61,466 nt of DNA from an uncultured Alphaproteobacteria bacterium (GTDB lineage Bacteria > Pseudomonadota > Alphaproteobacteria > HIMB59 > GCA-002718135), in the NCBI GenBank assembly GCA_902539825.1, contig CACBMH010000004.1:1-61466 (forward strand), given 5' to 3'. The first letter of the stretch is position 1; the number at the start of each line of letters is the position of its first letter. The notes under the pieces were generated by a model. It worked only from the letters and a program-made list of their open reading frames with translations, was not told the DNA's origin and ran no database searches. Below are positions 9,333 to 18,077 of this stretch, piece by piece. The translations under genes were made by a program, and so were the position numbers.

Positions 9333-10032
9333 CGGAATACTTATACATTCAAAAGTTTTCAAAGATAATGATCTATTAATTAAATTTTTATCAGATACGG
9401 ATGAAGTATTCTCAGGAATTGTATATGGGGGACTTTCAAAAAATAAGAAAAATATAATGCAACTTGGTTTTTTTTTAAATTTGGATGTAACATATATTGG
9501 TAATCGTCCACCATCAATAAAAGCTGAATTATCAAAACCTTATTTATCAAGTGTTATTAATGATAAATATAAACTAAGCTGCCTACTTTCAGTTGTATCT
9601 TTAATTAATGCCTCAATAATTGAAGGACAGAAAATAAACCAAATATATAAAATTTCTAAAGAGTTTTTAGAAATTATGATTAGTAAAAAAAAATGGTTAA
9701 ATTTCTTTTGTATCTACTTATTTGATTTACTTAAATATATTGGATACGAATTAGATTATGTTAACAATAATAGATTTAAATATTTTGATACAGATACTTT
9801 AGAATTTAAAGAAAATTACTCAAACTATACTATTGATTTTCCTCATCATCTTTTTGTGAGTAATTCAAATATTGCATTCGATTATTACTCTTTAAATAAT
9901 TTTTTTAAAATTTTTGAAATTATTTTTATTAAAAATCATTTATCAAATTTAAATCATAAATTGCCAAATCAGTATATTTTATTTAAGAAAAATATAATCA
10001 GTTTTTTAGCAAAGAATGAACAAAATAATTGA
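9316..10032 (+). CDS. recO: DNA repair protein RecO
   Basis: A 238-residue recombination mediator that helps RecA load on single-stranded DNA. The N-terminal OB fold is recognisable: a G(I/V)L(I/V)HSKVFKDND-type opening, then GIVYGGLSKNKK (about 35-46). The helical C-terminal half is poorly conserved and lacks the zinc-finger cysteines of some RecO proteins. Placement between era and parC is the usual alphaproteobacterial order and supports the call. It overlaps parC by 17 nt. Confidence 0.85.
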   Translation: MQKKFNGILIHSKVFKDNDLLIKFLSDTDEVFSGIVYGGLSKNKKNIMQLGFFLNLDVTYIGNRPPSIKAELSKPYLSSVINDKYKLSCLLSVVSLINASIIEGQKINQIYKISKEFLEIMISKKKWLNFFCIYLFDLLKYIGYELDYVNNNRFKYFDTDTLEFKENYSNYTIDFPHHLFVSNSNIAFDYYSLNNFFKIFEIIFIKNHLSNLNHKLPNQYILFKKNIISFLAKNEQNN

Positions 10033-12208
10033 ATCTAAATTAGATACCATACTTAGTGAAAAGTATCTTTCTTATGCAATATCAACTATTGTTTCAAGGT
10101 CATTACCTGATGTGAGGGACGGATTAAAACCTGTTCATCGCAGAATAATTTATTCAATGTATCAGCTAAAACTTTTCAAAAGTTCAAGTTATAAAAAATG
10201 TGCAAGAATTGTTGGCGATGTGATGGGTAAATTTCATCCGCATGGAGATCAAGCTATTTATGATAGTTTAGTAAGGATGGCTCAGGATTTTTCCACAAGA
10301 ATTACATTAGTCGATGGTCAGGGCAATTTTGGAAATATTGATGGTGATAATCCTGCAGCAATGCGATACACCGAGGCAAGATTACAAGATTATACAAATT
10401 ATTTTTTTGATGGTATCGAGGAAAATTCTGTAGATTTTAAAGATAATTACGATGGTCAAAATTTAGAACCAGTAGTACTGCCATCTCAGCTTCCTAATAT
10501 TTTAATTAATGGAGCAATGGGAATAGCTGTAGGCATGGCCACAAACATTCCTCCCCATAATATCGTTGAATTAATTGATGCATTAAAACTAATAATAAAA
10601 AAAGATAAAGCCTCACTTACTGAAATTTTAAAAATTATTAATGGACCAGATCTTCCCACAGGTGGTGAAATAATTTTAGATAATAATGAAAAAAAGCAAA
10701 TTTATAAGAATGGCAAGGGATCATTTAATATTAATGCTAAATACCAAATAGAAGAATTAAAAAATGGTTTATATCAAATAATTATTACTGAAATTCCATA
10801 TCAAGTTAATAAAGTTAAGATTATCGAACAACTTGCTAATAACATCAATAATAAAAAATTACCTTTGGATGATGTTGTTGATGAGTCAGATGAAAATATT
10901 AGAATTGTCTTAAAACCAAAGACCAGAAATATTGATTCTGAAAAATTAATAAGCTTATGTTTTAAATTAACTGACCTATCAATTAAGTACTCTTGTAATT
11001 TTAATGTTTTAATTGATGGTATAGAGCCTAAACAAATTGGAATTATTGAAATACTATTTAATTTTTTAGAACATCGAAAAGTTACCATTAAAAGAAAATC
11101 AAAATTTAATATAGAAAAAATTAAAAAGAGATTAGAAATTCTTAAGGGTTATCAAATTGTCTTTAAAAATTTAAATTCTATAATAAAAATAATAAGAACT
11201 AAGGATAACCCCAAAAAAGAAATAATAAAAAAATATAAATTATCTGATTTACAATGTGAGTCAATTTTAAGTATGCGTTTAGGATCTCTAAGAAAGATTG
11301 ATGAAAAAAATATTAAAGATGAAATCCAAAAATTAAATGAAGAACTAAAATATCTTAATAAATTAATAAAAGATAAAAAAACATTAGATAAATTTATAGT
11401 AAGTGAATTAGATCTTATAAAGAGTGATTTAGATACTGATATAAAGGAAAGAAAATCTTTAATTTCATCAGAACAAAATAATGATATTGATATTAGTATT
11501 GATGAATTTAAAGAAATTGAAAAATTCACCATTATCATTAATAAAGATTTTCAGCTTAAGAGAATTAAAGAGATAACTGATGAAAAGGAAATTGAAAAAA
11601 TAAAAAAAGAAAATCTATTTACAGTTAATTTAAATTCAAACGAAAAAATACTTTTGTTTGTTTCTTCTGGTAAAGTTTACACTATAGATCCAAATATTCT
11701 ACCAGGTGGAAATAGCAATCCTAAATCATTTATTTATTTTGTTGATAGTATGCCTAAAGATAAGATTGCTGGATTACTTTCATCAATCAATGATGACCTC
11801 TTAATTGTATCCAAAAATGGTAAAGGATTTATAGGTAATACTGAAACTCTTGTAACAAACCAAAAGAAAGGTAAGCAATTATTTAATTTAAAAAATAATG
11901 ATGTAGTTATTAAAGTATTAAATCTTTCAAAAAAACACATAGCTTGCGTTACAAAGTTACAAAAAATGCTAATTTTTGAAATTGATGTTTTGCCAAAATT
12001 ACAAAAGGGTGGAGGAGTTCAATTAATTAAAATTAAGAAAGATGATTTTTTATCGGATGTTACTCAGTTAACTATCGAAGATGGATTAGAATGGAGCACT
12101 GGTTCTAAAAATAGAAAGTTAGAAGATGTTGAGTTCTGGATGGGTAAAAGAGCCCAGGCAGGAAAAAAAGTCCCTAAATATTTTAATAAAAATCTTAAAT
12201 TTGATTAA
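10016..12208 (+). CDS. parC: DNA topoisomerase IV subunit A
   Basis: A 730-residue type II topoisomerase breakage-reunion subunit that decatenates daughter chromosomes with ParE. The start has ISTIVSRSLPDVRDGLKPVHRRI (quoted in part, residues 22-44), and the catalytic Tyr lies in AAMRYTEARL (Y118). In the quinolone region the position matching E. coli ParC Ser80 is Gln (Q79) and the Glu84 position is Asp (D83). The C-terminal beta-propeller is shorter and more degenerate than GyrA's, which with the recO neighbour favours ParC over GyrA. It is the last gene of the dapA-to-parC run. Confidence 0.92.
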   Translation: MNKIIESKLDTILSEKYLSYAISTIVSRSLPDVRDGLKPVHRRIIYSMYQLKLFKSSSYKKCARIVGDVMGKFHPHGDQAIYDSLVRMAQDFSTRITLVDGQGNFGNIDGDNPAAMRYTEARLQDYTNYFFDGIEENSVDFKDNYDGQNLEPVVLPSQLPNILINGAMGIAVGMATNIPPHNIVELIDALKLIIKKDKASLTEILKIINGPDLPTGGEIILDNNEKKQIYKNGKGSFNINAKYQIEELKNGLYQIIITEIPYQVNKVKIIEQLANNINNKKLPLDDVVDESDENIRIVLKPKTRNIDSEKLISLCFKLTDLSIKYSCNFNVLIDGIEPKQIGIIEILFNFLEHRKVTIKRKSKFNIEKIKKRLEILKGYQIVFKNLNSIIKIIRTKDNPKKEIIKKYKLSDLQCESILSMRLGSLRKIDEKNIKDEIQKLNEELKYLNKLIKDKKTLDKFIVSELDLIKSDLDTDIKERKSLISSEQNNDIDISIDEFKEIEKFTIIINKDFQLKRIKEITDEKEIEKIKKENLFTVNLNSNEKILLFVSSGKVYTIDPNILPGGNSNPKSFIYFVDSMPKDKIAGLLSSINDDLLIVSKNGKGFIGNTETLVTNQKKGKQLFNLKNNDVVIKVLNLSKKHIACVTKLQKMLIFEIDVLPKLQKGGGVQLIKIKKDDFLSDVTQLTIEDGLEWSTGSKNRKLEDVEFWMGKRAQAGKKVPKYFNKNLKFD

Positions 12209-12249: not shown

Positions 12250-13368
12250 ATGAACAAACCTAATCTAAATACACAATCTGTTTTATCAATGAAAGGTGAG
12301 GGTTATTACTCTCAAAAAACTGTTGGGGCAAAAAATGCTATAGATAAAGTGGAAGTATTAATTGAAGAAGCCTTTAAATATATCCCTAAAGTTGACATAC
12401 TTAGAATAGCTGATTTCGGCAGTGCTGATGGTGGTACAAGTCAAGAAATGTGGTTTAATATTATTGAAAAAATAAAAAAATCTGGAGATAATAGAGAAAT
12501 TGAGATGTTATATACTGATTTAGCATCTAATGACTTTTCAGTTTTATTTAGAATGATGCAAGGAATGCAAGGTAATAATAATTTTGCTTACCAGAATAAA
12601 TTTGAAAATGTTTTTGTGCACGGATGCGGTACAGGTTTTCATAAACAATTGATGTCTAAAAATAGTTTATCCTTAGGATTCTCTGCGACTGCAATGCACT
12701 ATGTTTCAGAAAGACCATGTTTGATAAATAATCATGTTCATATGGTAGGTTCAAATGAAGAAGAAAAAAAACAATTTAAAAATCAAGCTCTAAAAGATTG
12801 GGAAACAATTTTATTAAATAGATCAAATGAATTAGTTCCAGGTGGAAGGTTTATTTGTATAAATTTTGGAATAGATGAAAAGGGTAGATATTTGGGTAAC
12901 ACTGGTGGTCATAACATGTTCAATAATTTTACTAAACATTGGAAAAATTTAGAGCAAAAAGGAATTATTACAAATGAAGAATTTGTTAACGCTACTTTTA
13001 CTCAACATTATAGAACTGTTGAAGAATTTAGAAAACCTTTTGATGACCCTAATTCAGAAATATCAAAATCTGGGTTAATTCTTAAAAAATGTGAAACAAT
13101 GTTTACCGATTGTCCTTTTAAAGTTCATTATAATAAAAATCAATCTACTATGTCATCAAGGGAATATGCTGAAACATTAATACCAACAATGAGAAGTTGG
13201 TCAGAAACTGTATTTAAAACAGCATTAGAAAAAAGAAATCCTAATGAGATAAATCAAATTGTCGATCAATTTTATAATTCTTATCTTGAAGAAATAACAG
13301 AAAATCCAATAGGTCATGCAATGGATTATATTCATATAGTAATGGATATAGAAAAAAAAATTAATTAA
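12250..13368 (+). CDS. SABATH-like carboxyl methyltransferase
   Basis: A 372-residue protein resembling the SAM-dependent carboxyl methyltransferase (SABATH, Methyltransf_7) family, best known from plants where it methylates carboxylic acids such as salicylate. The N-terminal MKGEGYYSQKT (14-24) matches the family's M.GG.GE.SYA opening, and RIADFGSADGGTS (about 54-66) is the SAM-binding motif. SATAMHYVSERP (about 147-158) sits where the family has its SSSLHWLS-type motif. The substrate is unknown. It stands alone, 41 bp after parC, and its stop codon overlaps the stop of the convergent TRAP permease inside the palindrome TTAATTAA. Confidence 0.7.
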   Translation: MNKPNLNTQSVLSMKGEGYYSQKTVGAKNAIDKVEVLIEEAFKYIPKVDILRIADFGSADGGTSQEMWFNIIEKIKKSGDNREIEMLYTDLASNDFSVLFRMMQGMQGNNNFAYQNKFENVFVHGCGTGFHKQLMSKNSLSLGFSATAMHYVSERPCLINNHVHMVGSNEEEKKQFKNQALKDWETILLNRSNELVPGGRFICINFGIDEKGRYLGNTGGHNMFNNFTKHWKNLEQKGIITNEEFVNATFTQHYRTVEEFRKPFDDPNSEISKSGLILKKCETMFTDCPFKVHYNKNQSTMSSREYAETLIPTMRSWSETVFKTALEKRNPNEINQIVDQFYNSYLEEITENPIGHAMDYIHIVMDIEKKIN

Positions 13369-16007
13369 AAATATAAAGAAATATCTTCATGTACAGATTT
13401 ACATGAAGCTAAATAAATAGCTTGTTCTTTATTAAGTTTGTCTTGCTTTCTTAACCCAAAAGTCTCAGTACCAGTTTTAGATAATTTAATTAAATCACTT
13501 AAGATAATCTTATTACCATTCAATCTCCATTTTTTTTCAAATTTGTATATTTTTTTTGCTTCATTAATCAAATCTAATGCTTCATTTTTCTTATTGTAAT
13601 TTTTTTTCAACAATTTTCTTGCTTTTTTGATTGGTTTTGTAATTTCTGAAGTGTCAGTGAAAGAATTAAATAATCTCTCAAAATTTTTTATTATTTCTTC
13701 AATTCCATCCCTTTCTTCATTAACATTATTTAATAACTCATTAAAATTAATTTCTAATTTTGAAAATTCTTCAGCATTTTGAAAAATTTTGATAAATTTT
13801 TGTAAATCATTAAATGAGTTATCTACTGATTTATTATAACTAAGTTTCTTTTTCTTAAAATTATCTAATATTGTTTTGAAATTATTATTTTCCTCTTTCC
13901 AATTTGGAGGAATTGTCATTTTTATACTCTCAATTTCATTTTCTAATTCAAAAATTTCCTCTTCAAACTTCTGAATTTCATTAAGTTCAGTTTCAAGTCT
14001 AATTTCTTTTTTAATTTTTTCTATCTTTGATAATTTTTTATAAATATTTTTCTCAATATTCCTTACTTTTGTATGAAGTGGTTTATAATTAATTGAGTAA
14101 TCATTAAAATTTTTACGTGATAATTTTACTTCTTCAATTAAATTCTTTGAATCATTGATATTATTAATCATATTCGTAAAATTTTTATTTTGTTTTTCTG
14201 GTAAAAAATCAATATTGGTAGTCATTAGGTCATTTGTAATTAATATTGATTCAGAAAAATTTTCTTCATATTTATTATAAGAATAATCTACTAAACATTC
14301 TTGAAGTTTAGGATTAATTGGAGGAGGAGAAACTTCTGATGAATAATAAGACCTAAGAGGTAAATAATTTACTAATTGTGGAAAATATCCAACTACACCT
14401 AAACCTACTAGTTGAAGTAGTATAAACACGCTTGCACCTTTCCAGATTTCAGTCGTTTTTATTGATTTTGGTGCTACACCTCTTAGATAAAATAGTGAAA
14501 ATCCAAATGGTGGAGTTAAAAATGAAGTTTGCATATTTACACCAATCATTACACCCAGCCAAACCGCGGTAACATTTGCTGATGTTTCAGCTAATAGTAT
14601 CGGTGCAACTATAGGAACAACAACAATTGCAATTTCTATAAAATCTAAAAAAAAACCTAGTACAAATATAACTACCATTACAACTATAAATTGTGTCCAA
14701 AAACCTCCAGGAAGACTAGTAAGAAAATCCTTAACTATTTCTTCACCTCCAAAACCTCTAAACGCTGCTGTTAACATTGCAGCACCAATCAGAATTATAA
14801 AAACCATTGAAGTAGTTAAACTTGTTTCTATCATTACGTTTTTTAAAACATTATTTATTTTAAATGTTCTCCAAAAACTCCAAACAACACCAACAATTAA
14901 AAATATAACTGCAAATATTGCAATTACTAAAGCTACCACTTCTGATGTTGATGAAATATTTTTAACATTAAGTTGAAAATTTATTACAATAAAAGTTATT
15001 ACTATTAATGAAATTATAGTTATTAAAGCTGGTGTATATTTGTTTTTTTTATCATACAATCTATAACCACCCATCACACCTGCACCCACAGCACCTATGG
15101 CGCCTGCTTGATTTACTGTTGCTATACCAAGTAATATTGAACCTAAAACTACAAAAATTAATGCTAATGGCGGGACAAGCGATAGAAAAACTCTCCTAAA
15201 GAAATCTCTGTCATAATTTCCTTCATACTCTACTGGAGGTACTGCTTCTTTTTTAAATATTCCAATCAGTAAAACATATAACATGTATAGACCAACAAGA
15301 ACTAAACCAGGTAAGAAAGCTCCTAAAAACATATTCCCAGCACTGACTGAGTCTACACTAAATTGACTTGGTATATTTGTAGAACCAGTTACGTTTTTAT
15401 AATTTTCTATCCTCATATTATCTGCTGCATCTGAAGCAGACGCTAATTGGTCTGACAAAATAATAAGGACAATTGAAGGTGGGATTATTTGACCAAGTGT
15501 GCCAGAAGAACAAACAATTCCAGACGCAAGTGATCTATTATAATTATTTTTCATCATTGCTGGTAAAGAAATTAAACCCATCGCAACTACTGTAGCCCCT
15601 ACAATGCCTGTCGTAGCGGCTAATAATGCACCAACAAATATTACAGAAATCCCTAATCCCCCCGGAATAGGTCCAAATAATTGTCCCATACTTATCAATA
15701 GGTCTTCTGCAATTTTTGATTTTTCAAGCATTATTCCCATAAAAATAAAAAGAGGTATCGCTATCAATGTATCTCTTTCTACCTCCCAATATACTCCTCG
15801 AAAATTTGTTATTCCTGCATTTAGCCATTGAAAAGGACCATCAGATATAAAATATTCATTTGGGTTACCTTCAATTAAATATCCTGCTAAACCAGCTAAA
15901 AATATTGATATTATAGCTGAACCAGGAAGAGCGAAAGCTAATGGATATCCAGAAGCAAGTGCAAATGCCATTAAAAATATTAATAAAAAAAGAAAAAATA
16001 ATTCCAT
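13365..16007 (-). CDS. dctM: TRAP transporter large permease (DctM) with long coiled-coil-like C-terminal tail
   Basis: An 880-residue protein. Residues 1 to about 545 are a DctM-type permease with many membrane helices; conserved stretches include PLFIFMGIMLEKS (near 82-94), GATVVAMGLISLPAM, and near the end of the membrane part TPPFGFSLFYLRGVAPKSI. The remaining 330 or so residues have no membrane segment and are rich in Lys, Glu, Asn and Ile, with long helical runs that look like coiled coil (about 640-720). Common DctM proteins are 420-450 residues; larger forms exist, but I do not recognise this tail. The start follows dctQ after 2 nt. Confidence 0.88.
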   Translation of the reverse strand: MELFFLFLLIFLMAFALASGYPLAFALPGSAIISIFLAGLAGYLIEGNPNEYFISDGPFQWLNAGITNFRGVYWEVERDTLIAIPLFIFMGIMLEKSKIAEDLLISMGQLFGPIPGGLGISVIFVGALLAATTGIVGATVVAMGLISLPAMMKNNYNRSLASGIVCSSGTLGQIIPPSIVLIILSDQLASASDAADNMRIENYKNVTGSTNIPSQFSVDSVSAGNMFLGAFLPGLVLVGLYMLYVLLIGIFKKEAVPPVEYEGNYDRDFFRRVFLSLVPPLALIFVVLGSILLGIATVNQAGAIGAVGAGVMGGYRLYDKKNKYTPALITIISLIVITFIVINFQLNVKNISSTSEVVALVIAIFAVIFLIVGVVWSFWRTFKINNVLKNVMIETSLTTSMVFIILIGAAMLTAAFRGFGGEEIVKDFLTSLPGGFWTQFIVVMVVIFVLGFFLDFIEIAIVVVPIVAPILLAETSANVTAVWLGVMIGVNMQTSFLTPPFGFSLFYLRGVAPKSIKTTEIWKGASVFILLQLVGLGVVGYFPQLVNYLPLRSYYSSEVSPPPINPKLQECLVDYSYNKYEENFSESILITNDLMTTNIDFLPEKQNKNFTNMINNINDSKNLIEEVKLSRKNFNDYSINYKPLHTKVRNIEKNIYKKLSKIEKIKKEIRLETELNEIQKFEEEIFELENEIESIKMTIPPNWKEENNNFKTILDNFKKKKLSYNKSVDNSFNDLQKFIKIFQNAEEFSKLEINFNELLNNVNEERDGIEEIIKNFERLFNSFTDTSEITKPIKKARKLLKKNYNKKNEALDLINEAKKIYKFEKKWRLNGNKIILSDLIKLSKTGTETFGLRKQDKLNKEQAIYLASCKSVHEDISLYF

Positions 16008-16009
16008 TA

Positions 16010-16930
16010 TTAATTCTTTCTAATTACTTCTAAACTTCTTAATGAATAAATTATAAATTGTATCAGCATTGTAAGAGCAAATATTATTAAAAAACCCGCC
16101 ATTAAATATTTTATATTCATTCCTTGAGTACTTTGAGATGTTTCAAAATTCATTATTGGTTGGTTTAAAACACATTGTTTGCAGTACATCCCAAGAAAGA
16201 ACACAGTTAAACAAAGTGGAATACCCAGTAATAAACTTCCAAAAAGATTTACTCTTGCTTTATTTTTTTCACTAAAATTAGTATACAAAACATCAACTCT
16301 AACATGGCCATCTTTAATTAAAGTATAATAACTTCCAAATAAAAATAAGCTTCCATACCAAAATCTTACAAGATCACTCATTAAAGTTTGTTCATATGAA
16401 AAAACAAATCTTAAAATGACAATTTGAAATTCTGCTATTACAACAAGAAATGCTAACCAGTAAAAATTTAGAGATCTGAAGTAATATGCAAATAATAATG
16501 AAACAAATAATAAAGGAAAATGAACATATGGGGCTCGAAAAGAATTATTTGAAAATTTTATGTTCCAACTTTTTCCAATCATTTGTTCAAGGAAACCTTC
16601 AATTATTAGAAAAGAAATTATGGCGTCAATTATTCCTATTATTAATACTGACCAAAAGCCAAATCTAATTATATAATCATTCACTCTTTCAAGGTTATTG
16701 GCTAGAGTCAGATTATCCAATTTTTTATTATAATTAATCAATATTAATGGAACAATAATTGCTAATACATAAAGAAAAAATTGTATCGATGAATATATAT
16801 TTGCTGAATTATATATTGTAAACGCTCCAGGCCAATCACCTGCGAAAGTTAAATAGTTATTAATTAAAAATGCAAATACTATTAAGATTAAACAAATTGA
16901 AAAAAATTTAGAAATATTTGAGATATTCAT
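16010..16930 (-). CDS. dctQ: TRAP transporter small permease (DctQ), large variant
   Basis: The small membrane subunit of the TRAP transporter, which pairs with DctM for sodium-driven uptake of substrate delivered by DctP. An upstream in-frame ATG exists at 16958-16960, but the first ten codons from there lie in a perfect hairpin, so I place the start at 16928-16930 (MNISNISKFF), giving 306 residues. That is about twice a typical DctQ (160-200); there are roughly eight hydrophobic segments. The C-terminal half (about 185-300: RFWYGSLFLFGSYYTLIKDGHVRVDVLY) carries the DctQ signature, and the N-terminal half is extra. Confidence 0.85.
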   Translation of the reverse strand: MNISNISKFFSICLILIVFAFLINNYLTFAGDWPGAFTIYNSANIYSSIQFFLYVLAIIVPLILINYNKKLDNLTLANNLERVNDYIIRFGFWSVLIIGIIDAIISFLIIEGFLEQMIGKSWNIKFSNNSFRAPYVHFPLLFVSLLFAYYFRSLNFYWLAFLVVIAEFQIVILRFVFSYEQTLMSDLVRFWYGSLFLFGSYYTLIKDGHVRVDVLYTNFSEKNKARVNLFGSLLLGIPLCLTVFFLGMYCKQCVLNQPIMNFETSQSTQGMNIKYLMAGFLIIFALTMLIQFIIYSLRSLEVIRKN

Positions 16931-16938
16931 AAAAATAA

Positions 16939-16958
16939 GTGGGGAGTAAACTCCCCAC
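16939..16958 (-). terminator. Intra-operon hairpin between dctP and dctQ
   Basis: On the minus strand GTGGGGAG (16951-16958), loop TTTA, then CTCCCCAC (16939-16946) forms a perfect 8-bp GC-rich stem, followed by TTATTTTTATG running into the dctQ start. It sits 12 nt after the dctP stop. It probably acts as a partial terminator and mRNA 3' stabiliser, so the binding protein is made in excess of the permease subunits (inference; such arrangements are known for binding-protein transporters). Confidence 0.75.
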
Positions 16959-16970
16959 ATGATTTAAAAT

Positions 16971-18077
16971 TTAACCTTCAAGTACTCTATTTCTTTGAGT
17001 AAAGAAAGCTGAGTCAGCTTTTTCTAACCAACCACTTATTTCACTTCTTGATTTTCTAAAGCTTGCAAGAATTCTTCCGGTTAATTCATTACCTTCAGCA
17101 AGTTCTTCATACAGTTGTTCTGCTGCTTCACCCATTGCATCGATAACATCTTCGTTGAATTCTCTTAGCTCAACACCATGATCATTCACAAGTCTCTGCA
17201 ATGCAGCTCCATTATTTGCATTATATTCAGTCAACATTCTTTCATTTTGAACTGTTGAAGCATGCTCAATAATCATTTGATCTGTTTTGCTTAAACTTGT
17301 TAACCAAGATTTATTACAACCTAGTGTTATTAATGTTCCTGGTTCATGACATCCAGGCCAGTAATAATACTTTGCGGCTTCATAGAATCTTGATCTTTCA
17401 TCATTCCATGGTCCTACCCATTCTGTTGCATCGATTGTTCCATTGATCAAGTTTTCATATATTTGTCCACCAGGCACACCTACAACAGATAAACCAAGTT
17501 TAGACATCATCATTCCACCTAATCCAGGAATTCTCATTTTAAGACCTTTGAAATCATCTGGAGAATTAATTTCTTTATTAAACCATCCACCCATTTGAAC
17601 ACCAGAGTTTCCAGCCATAAAGTTTTTCAAACCAAATTCATCACCAAGTTCATCCCAAAGTTCTTGTCCGCCACCATGTCGTATCCATCCGTTGATTTCA
17701 GTTGCTATCATTCCAAAAGGAACTGCTGCAAAGAAACCCCAACCGGGATGTTGTCCAACCCAATAGTAGTCAGCACTATTATACATTTGAGCATTTCCAG
17801 ATGTAACTTCAGTAAATACATCTAATGGTCCTACTCTTTCTCCACCAGCAAAGTGATTAACAACAATACGACCATCACTTAAGTCTGATATTCTTTGAGA
17901 AACAGCTTCTGCGCCTGTACCTAATCCAGGATAGCCTCTACCCCAAGTAGCAACGCAGTTGACTTCTATTCTATCAGCTGCAATAGCTGGAGCTGGGAAA
18001 GATGAAACGGCTGTTGCAGCTGCTGCACCAATTCCTGCTTTTTTTAGGAAGTCACGTCTTTTAAAGTTTTTTTTCAT
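16971..18077 (-). CDS. dctP: TRAP transporter substrate-binding protein (DctP family, TakP-like)
   Basis: A 368-residue periplasmic binding protein, first gene of a dctPQM operon. The N-terminus has a twin-arginine signal KRRDFLKK (6-13) with an Ala-rich hydrophobic stretch and likely cleavage after AIA at 33, so it is exported folded by Tat. The mature part contains LKMRIPGLGG (conserved Arg) and ATEWVGPWND (about 220-229), patterns of TakP-like proteins that bind 2-oxo acids or other organic acids. The precise ligand cannot be read. A strong Shine-Dalgarno (18081-18087) and TATAAT at 18125-18130 on the minus strand suggest high expression. Confidence 0.9.
   Translation of the reverse strand: MKKNFKRRDFLKKAGIGAAAATAVSSFPAPAIAADRIEVNCVATWGRGYPGLGTGAEAVSQRISDLSDGRIVVNHFAGGERVGPLDVFTEVTSGNAQMYNSADYYWVGQHPGWGFFAAVPFGMIATEINGWIRHGGGQELWDELGDEFGLKNFMAGNSGVQMGGWFNKEINSPDDFKGLKMRIPGLGGMMMSKLGLSVVGVPGGQIYENLINGTIDATEWVGPWNDERSRFYEAAKYYYWPGCHEPGTLITLGCNKSWLTSLSKTDQMIIEHASTVQNERMLTEYNANNGAALQRLVNDHGVELREFNEDVIDAMGEAAEQLYEELAEGNELTGRILASFRKSRSEISGWLEKADSAFFTQRNRVLEG

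Follow-up and report, generated by a model that had tools for sequence, protein, structure and literature searches.

A conserved helical domain, predicted to be periplasmic, at the C-terminus of DctM in an alphaproteobacterial subfamily of TRAP transporters

The structurally characterized SiaQM and SiaPQM systems (PMC9971032, PMC9352664; PDB entries 7qha and 7qe5) share with the locus described here the P-Q-M organization and an M core that is homologous as far as the canonical C-terminus. The M subunit of PpSiaQM has an N-out/C-out topology and its transmembrane helices 10–12 are part of the transport domain, which moves as an elevator (PMC9971032). SiaT carries no periplasmic domain and SiaQ no extra N-terminal module, which sets both apart from the present system. 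A periplasmic addition to M has been described in the TAXI-type VcGluQM of Vibrio cholerae, in which the so-called claw (DUF3394) is predicted to stabilize docking of the soluble receptor (PMC11574862). Its authors liken the claw to a domain of MalEFGK2 and state that no DctP-type TRAP transporter is known with such an extension (PMC11574862). The closest solved homologue of our receptor is TakP from the TakPQM system of Rhodobacter sphaeroides (PMC1839085; PDB entries 2hzk and 2hzl), whose cation- and substrate-site motifs (GVQMGGW, TEWVGP, a later Glu and KMR) are retained.

The stretch of DNA analysed (the window; 61 466 nucleotides from an uncultured alphaproteobacterium) encodes a TRAP operon on the reverse strand, in which the large permease gene is divided as follows.

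13365–16007, reverse strand: TRAP large permease DctM, 880 residues (Pfam DctM, E = 1.1e-63), with a C-terminal arm that is periplasmic by homology
14373–16007, reverse strand: membrane core of M (residues 1–545), elevator and scaffold
13368–14372, reverse strand: tail or helical arm of M (residues 546–880, 335 residues), a conserved family

The M reading frame starts with ATG and contains no internal stops. The DctM profile matches over the membrane core and is confined to the first ~550 of the 880 residues; against TIGR00786 the protein scores 261.8 bits (E = 9.1e-78), slightly below the curated cut-off of 268.45. The final hydrophobic helix comprises residues 521–539 and the membrane part is over by residue ~545. 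When the family profile is aligned with solved TRAP permeases, position 552 corresponds to residue 612 of the 616-residue HiSiaT, which ends only four residues further on. The canonical protein thus finishes at this point, and the 335 residues that follow are a true addition. Relatives without the tail stop 3–8 residues past the same point, apart from two that stop after 28. The original prediction that a tail of ~330 residues beyond the last helix (at ~545) is unusual for DctM is borne out. Where DctM is expected to end soon after its last helix, the window protein continues for 335 residues more; the long C-terminus is a variant feature of M and not a defining trait of the DctM core. A hairpin within the core (about residues 320–383) was considered as a mark of the subfamily and was rejected, since some tail-less relatives also have it.

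A profile of the tail matched 32 of 385 genomes sampled across the Alphaproteobacteria, 31 of them credibly, and a phylum-wide sample of 399 genomes again gave credible matches in this class alone. Weak matches in two genomes (G180, where the match is short, and G547) are attributed to coiled-coil chance, as no DctM core was found in the stretches of flanking DNA retrieved. Within the family of the window, 46 of 110 genomes matched, and many of the others are incomplete. The owners include uncultured marine bacteria and cultured Sneathiella, among them the isolates S. sedimenti, S. chungangensis and S. litorea. Among plasmids, 486 records contained a relative, none of which covered 80% of the query. 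Tail length is kept at 317–349 residues in the members measured, although identity to the window protein drops to 22–30%. Against close relatives, dN/dS is 0.08–0.24 for the tail and 0.015–0.057 for the core; the tail is therefore under purifying selection, yet evolves faster than the core. The earlier view that the tail is in frame and no artefact of read-through agrees with an open tail in 31 of the 385 class genomes as well as in the Sneathiella isolates and with these ratios, which also speak against an assembly artefact. The tail proves to be a domain of one alphaproteobacterial TRAP subfamily rather than a peculiarity of the window protein.

Cores at least 57% identical to that of the window all bear a tail unless a contig end cuts them, and those at most 47% identical are all tail-less. 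A FastTree phylogeny of 56 cores separates 33 tail-bearing from 23 tail-less sequences with a support of 1.0 on a branch of length 0.82, a split that, at the level of sequence comparison, speaks for a single, old origin of the tail. A parC-like gene for topoisomerase IV subunit A (10016–12208, forward strand) converges on the TRAP operon in the window, and of the distant loci examined about half (L144, L146, L148–L151, L153, L156, L157 and others) have such a neighbour near P-Q-M. This neighbourhood is a very old conserved synteny, and its recurrence would point to old vertical inheritance with losses and not to recent transfer. One locus (L044; NYXO01000065.1) comes from a bin labelled 'Euryarchaeota archaeon' and has a core 98.9% identical to that of the window; this contig was almost certainly binned wrongly and is alphaproteobacterial.

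The tail is rich in Lys (14.6%), Asn (12.8%), Glu (11.6%) and Ile (10.1%), as had been noted originally together with its long helical runs, and both the composition and a near-all-helical structure prediction agree with that description. The Lys, Asn and Ile content is probably merely the bias of an AT-rich genome, because the same domain in distant relatives spans net charges from −25 to +33. The elements of the tail discussed below are

14283–14372, reverse strand: membrane-proximal base of the arm, NYLPxR...SExxPPPxNPxLQxC
13995–14198, reverse strand: longest helix of the arm in the structure predictions, residues 604–671 (68 residues)
13368–13472, reverse strand: C-terminal closing segment, TxGLRxQ...C...DISxxF-COOH
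14295–14297, reverse strand: Cys571, proposed disulfide partner of Cys869, invariant (tail position 26 of the 32-row alignment A3)
13401–13403, reverse strand: Cys869, proposed disulfide partner of Cys571, invariant (tail position 324 of the same alignment)

The two ends are the best conserved parts of the tail. Column entropy is lowest in the base of the arm (0.95 bits, compared with 2.10 bits for the tail overall) and is 1.42 bits in the closing segment, and the C-terminal end is fixed in all tails, usually as [DN]-[IV]-S-x-x-F; the middle helices vary in sequence. All 29 tails checked contain exactly two cysteines, one near each end. The invariance of the pair suggests that a Cys571–Cys869 disulfide may close the arm, which would suit an oxidizing compartment and agrees with a periplasmic location.

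AlphaFold predicts the tail alone (32 alignment rows) to be all-helical, with a mean pLDDT of 91.6 and a pTM of 0.81. The membrane part of a full-length model built from 13 rows is poor (pLDDT about 25–65), probably because these rows are too alike in that region, and the model was not used for geometry. Foldseek searches of the PDB with both models returned nothing below an E value of 0.001; the best matches were designed helix bundles, SMC coiled coils and α-helical pore-forming proteins with low TM-scores, and were discarded as generic helices. Matches to COG4_N, EzrA, SMC, Rad50 and Ppl in Pfam and NCBIfam were likewise rejected as scattered, far below the cut-offs and typical of coiled coils. 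No family that would explain the tail was found in Pfam, NCBIfam or the PDB. The condition set originally against the prediction, that such tails be common and annotated in many DctM proteins, holds half-way: they are common in one clade, and they are absent from the domain libraries searched. A full-text literature search for a C-terminal extension, periplasmic domain or coiled coil of DctM, with most subscription papers outside its reach, returned no description of the domain. We conclude that an alphaproteobacterial TRAP subfamily is defined by this tail, a conserved helical domain that has no name in the libraries searched and is predicted to be periplasmic.

Coiled-coil matches of this generic kind in long helical segments could be taken to indicate that the arm dimerizes or clusters the transporter, perhaps as a counterpart to a TakP-like receptor that is itself dimeric, TakP being a helix-swapped dimer (PMC1839085). 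The arm is, however, predicted confidently as a single chain and the literature describes TRAP transporters as elevators that likely function as monomers (PMC9971032, PMC9352664), so that the earlier suggestion of a tail joining copies of the transporter finds no support and we consider dimerization rather unlikely.

Since the M subunit is N-out/C-out in solved homologues and the tail starts beyond the final transport-domain helix, the tail should be periplasmic and should move with the elevator. In these respects the proposed arm resembles the VcGluQM claw, which is likewise a periplasmic addition to the C-terminal region of M on the transport domain. The claw, however, is mainly β-sheet, is inserted between the second and third of three extra membrane helices and is part of a TAXI-type system, whereas the arm of the window protein is all-helical, C-terminal, bracketed by two cysteines and part of a DctP-type system. 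The receptor in the window is a DctP (PF03480), Q and M are encoded separately rather than fused as in the claw's TAXI-type system, and Pfam scans gave no match to DUF3394. The arm would be analogous but unrelated to the claw, an independent helical solution. A further parallel is the maltose ABC importer, in which the periplasmic P2 domain of MalF, carried on the membrane part, meets the binding protein; this likeness is functional only, as that class of transporter is unrelated to TRAP.

By analogy with the claw, the reading that we favour, at a probability of about 45%, is that the arm docks or couples the receptor P. An all-helical, disulfide-closed periplasmic arm fused to the last helix of the elevator domain would dock or hold the TakP-like receptor, exported by Tat, above the transporter. 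Receptor binding would thereby be coupled to the elevator stroke, and Q, enlarged in a way unique to these systems, would strengthen the static scaffold as a counterweight. The contact between the tail and P, like its effect on transport, is something that we infer only. The conservation of the membrane-proximal ends counts in favour of docking, as do the invariant cysteines, the confident prediction of the tail on its own, the constant P-Q-M order and the joint occurrence of the tail with an enlarged Q. Against it, the tail evolves fast and varies widely in charge, whereas P is always acidic, which is unlike a fixed electrostatic dock, and SiaP-type systems function without a tail.

The same features can be read differently. 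The longest helix would measure ~10 nm if straight, and middle helices that vary while their length is kept are what might be expected of a spacer or stalk; together with the fixed C-terminal end of each tail, this would suit an arm that extends outward to anchor the transporter to a porin, a lipoprotein or the cell wall for local hand-over of substrate. Binding to a partner in the cell envelope was a reasonable guess in the original prediction, and the periplasmic side of the tail follows from the topology of solved M subunits. No cell-wall or outer-membrane binding family in Pfam or NCBIfam is matched by the tail, however, and only P, Q and M are constant at the loci, with no further constant partner gene at those examined, so that we regard such a tie as unlikely. 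A periplasm-spanning lever mounted on the elevator, which would link the transport domain beyond the receptor to a porin or the cell wall and couple substrate entry to the stroke, appears highly doubtful. The partner genes of M at the locus are as follows.

16010–16960, reverse strand: TRAP small permease DctQ, 316 residues as called (Pfam DctQ, E = 4.9e-11, residues 180–305 only)
16466–16960, reverse strand: extra N-terminal membrane module of Q (residues 1–165), found only with tail-bearing M
16971–18077, reverse strand: TRAP receptor DctP, TakP-like, with a twin-arginine signal (Pfam DctP, E = 4.5e-49; PDB entry 2hzk, E = 1e-72)

The order P-Q-M on one strand is constant across the loci, with Q and P of one locus (L145) cut by a contig end. 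P matches the TAT signal profile and an RRxF Tat motif is present in all 29 P proteins examined; P appears from this signal to be a soluble, untethered receptor, like that of the transporter with the claw, which counts in favour of docking. The TakP motifs align with GVQMGGW, TEWVGP, CHEPG and KMR of the window protein, and Gln161, Arg182, Glu219, Trp220 and Glu245 are invariant in the 29 proteins; the cation ligands of TakP are listed in PMC1839085. The receptor family suggests that the substrates are likely to be 2-oxoacids such as pyruvate.

The true start of Q is probably Met11 (about 16930) and not the first ATG at 16960, as judged from close homologues. Its N-terminal module of ~165 residues has conserved hydrophobic segments that would correspond to about four additional membrane helices, and Pfam assigns it no consistent family. 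Arg99, Asp112, Arg119 and Glu121, in or beside predicted membrane helices, are invariant or nearly so, and a PG motif is invariant. The module occurs in 32 of the 385 class genomes, 30 of which also belong to the set with a tail (~2.6 expected by chance). Where contigs are complete the two occur together in 30 of 30 genomes, and the tail is accompanied there by a TakP-like, Tat-exported receptor as well. The three mismatches are explained by contig ends: the contig of G269, which has no Q, is just 4865 bases long, and in G168 and G196 the contig breaks off inside M or ahead of it.

This strict co-occurrence could mean that the arm mainly aids the folding, assembly or stability of an enlarged Q–M pair in the membrane. 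A periplasmic domain of 335 residues is large for such a task, however, and with core and P controlled the divergence of the tail does not track that of Q (partial r = 0.02), making this explanation very unlikely. Co-occurrence with an enlarged scaffold Q, fusion to the moving domain and a conserved base set against the membrane would also fit a regulatory lid or brake that shields Q and M on their periplasmic side and restricts the elevator until a loaded receptor displaces it; a lid would usually need contact surfaces more conserved than the variable middle of the arm, and we think this quite unlikely. For docking of the receptor, the corresponding correlation of tail with P is 0.28 when core and Q are controlled, and with the core alone controlled the values are 0.31 for P and 0.15 for Q. 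That tail divergence tracks P above Q counts in favour of docking, although these correlations are weak and are figures without a significance test.

In relation to the statement made for the claw, the subfamily is a counter-example, with a larger and unrelated domain on a DctP-type M, which would mean at least two separate gains of such periplasmic domains among TRAP transporters. The arm also offers a defined, removable part for testing how the elevator is coupled to a soluble receptor. At seven loci (L069–L071, L073, L074, L149 and L159) a second, tail-less TRAP system lies beside the tail-bearing one. The M gene of the window stands tail to tail, with a 4-base overlap, with a gene for a SAM-dependent carboxyl methyltransferase (12250–13368, forward strand; Methyltransf_7, PF03492, E = 1.5e-33), of a family (SABATH) best known from plants. 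This methyltransferase gene is also retained beside the operon in several relatives of the window and at one distant locus (L158).
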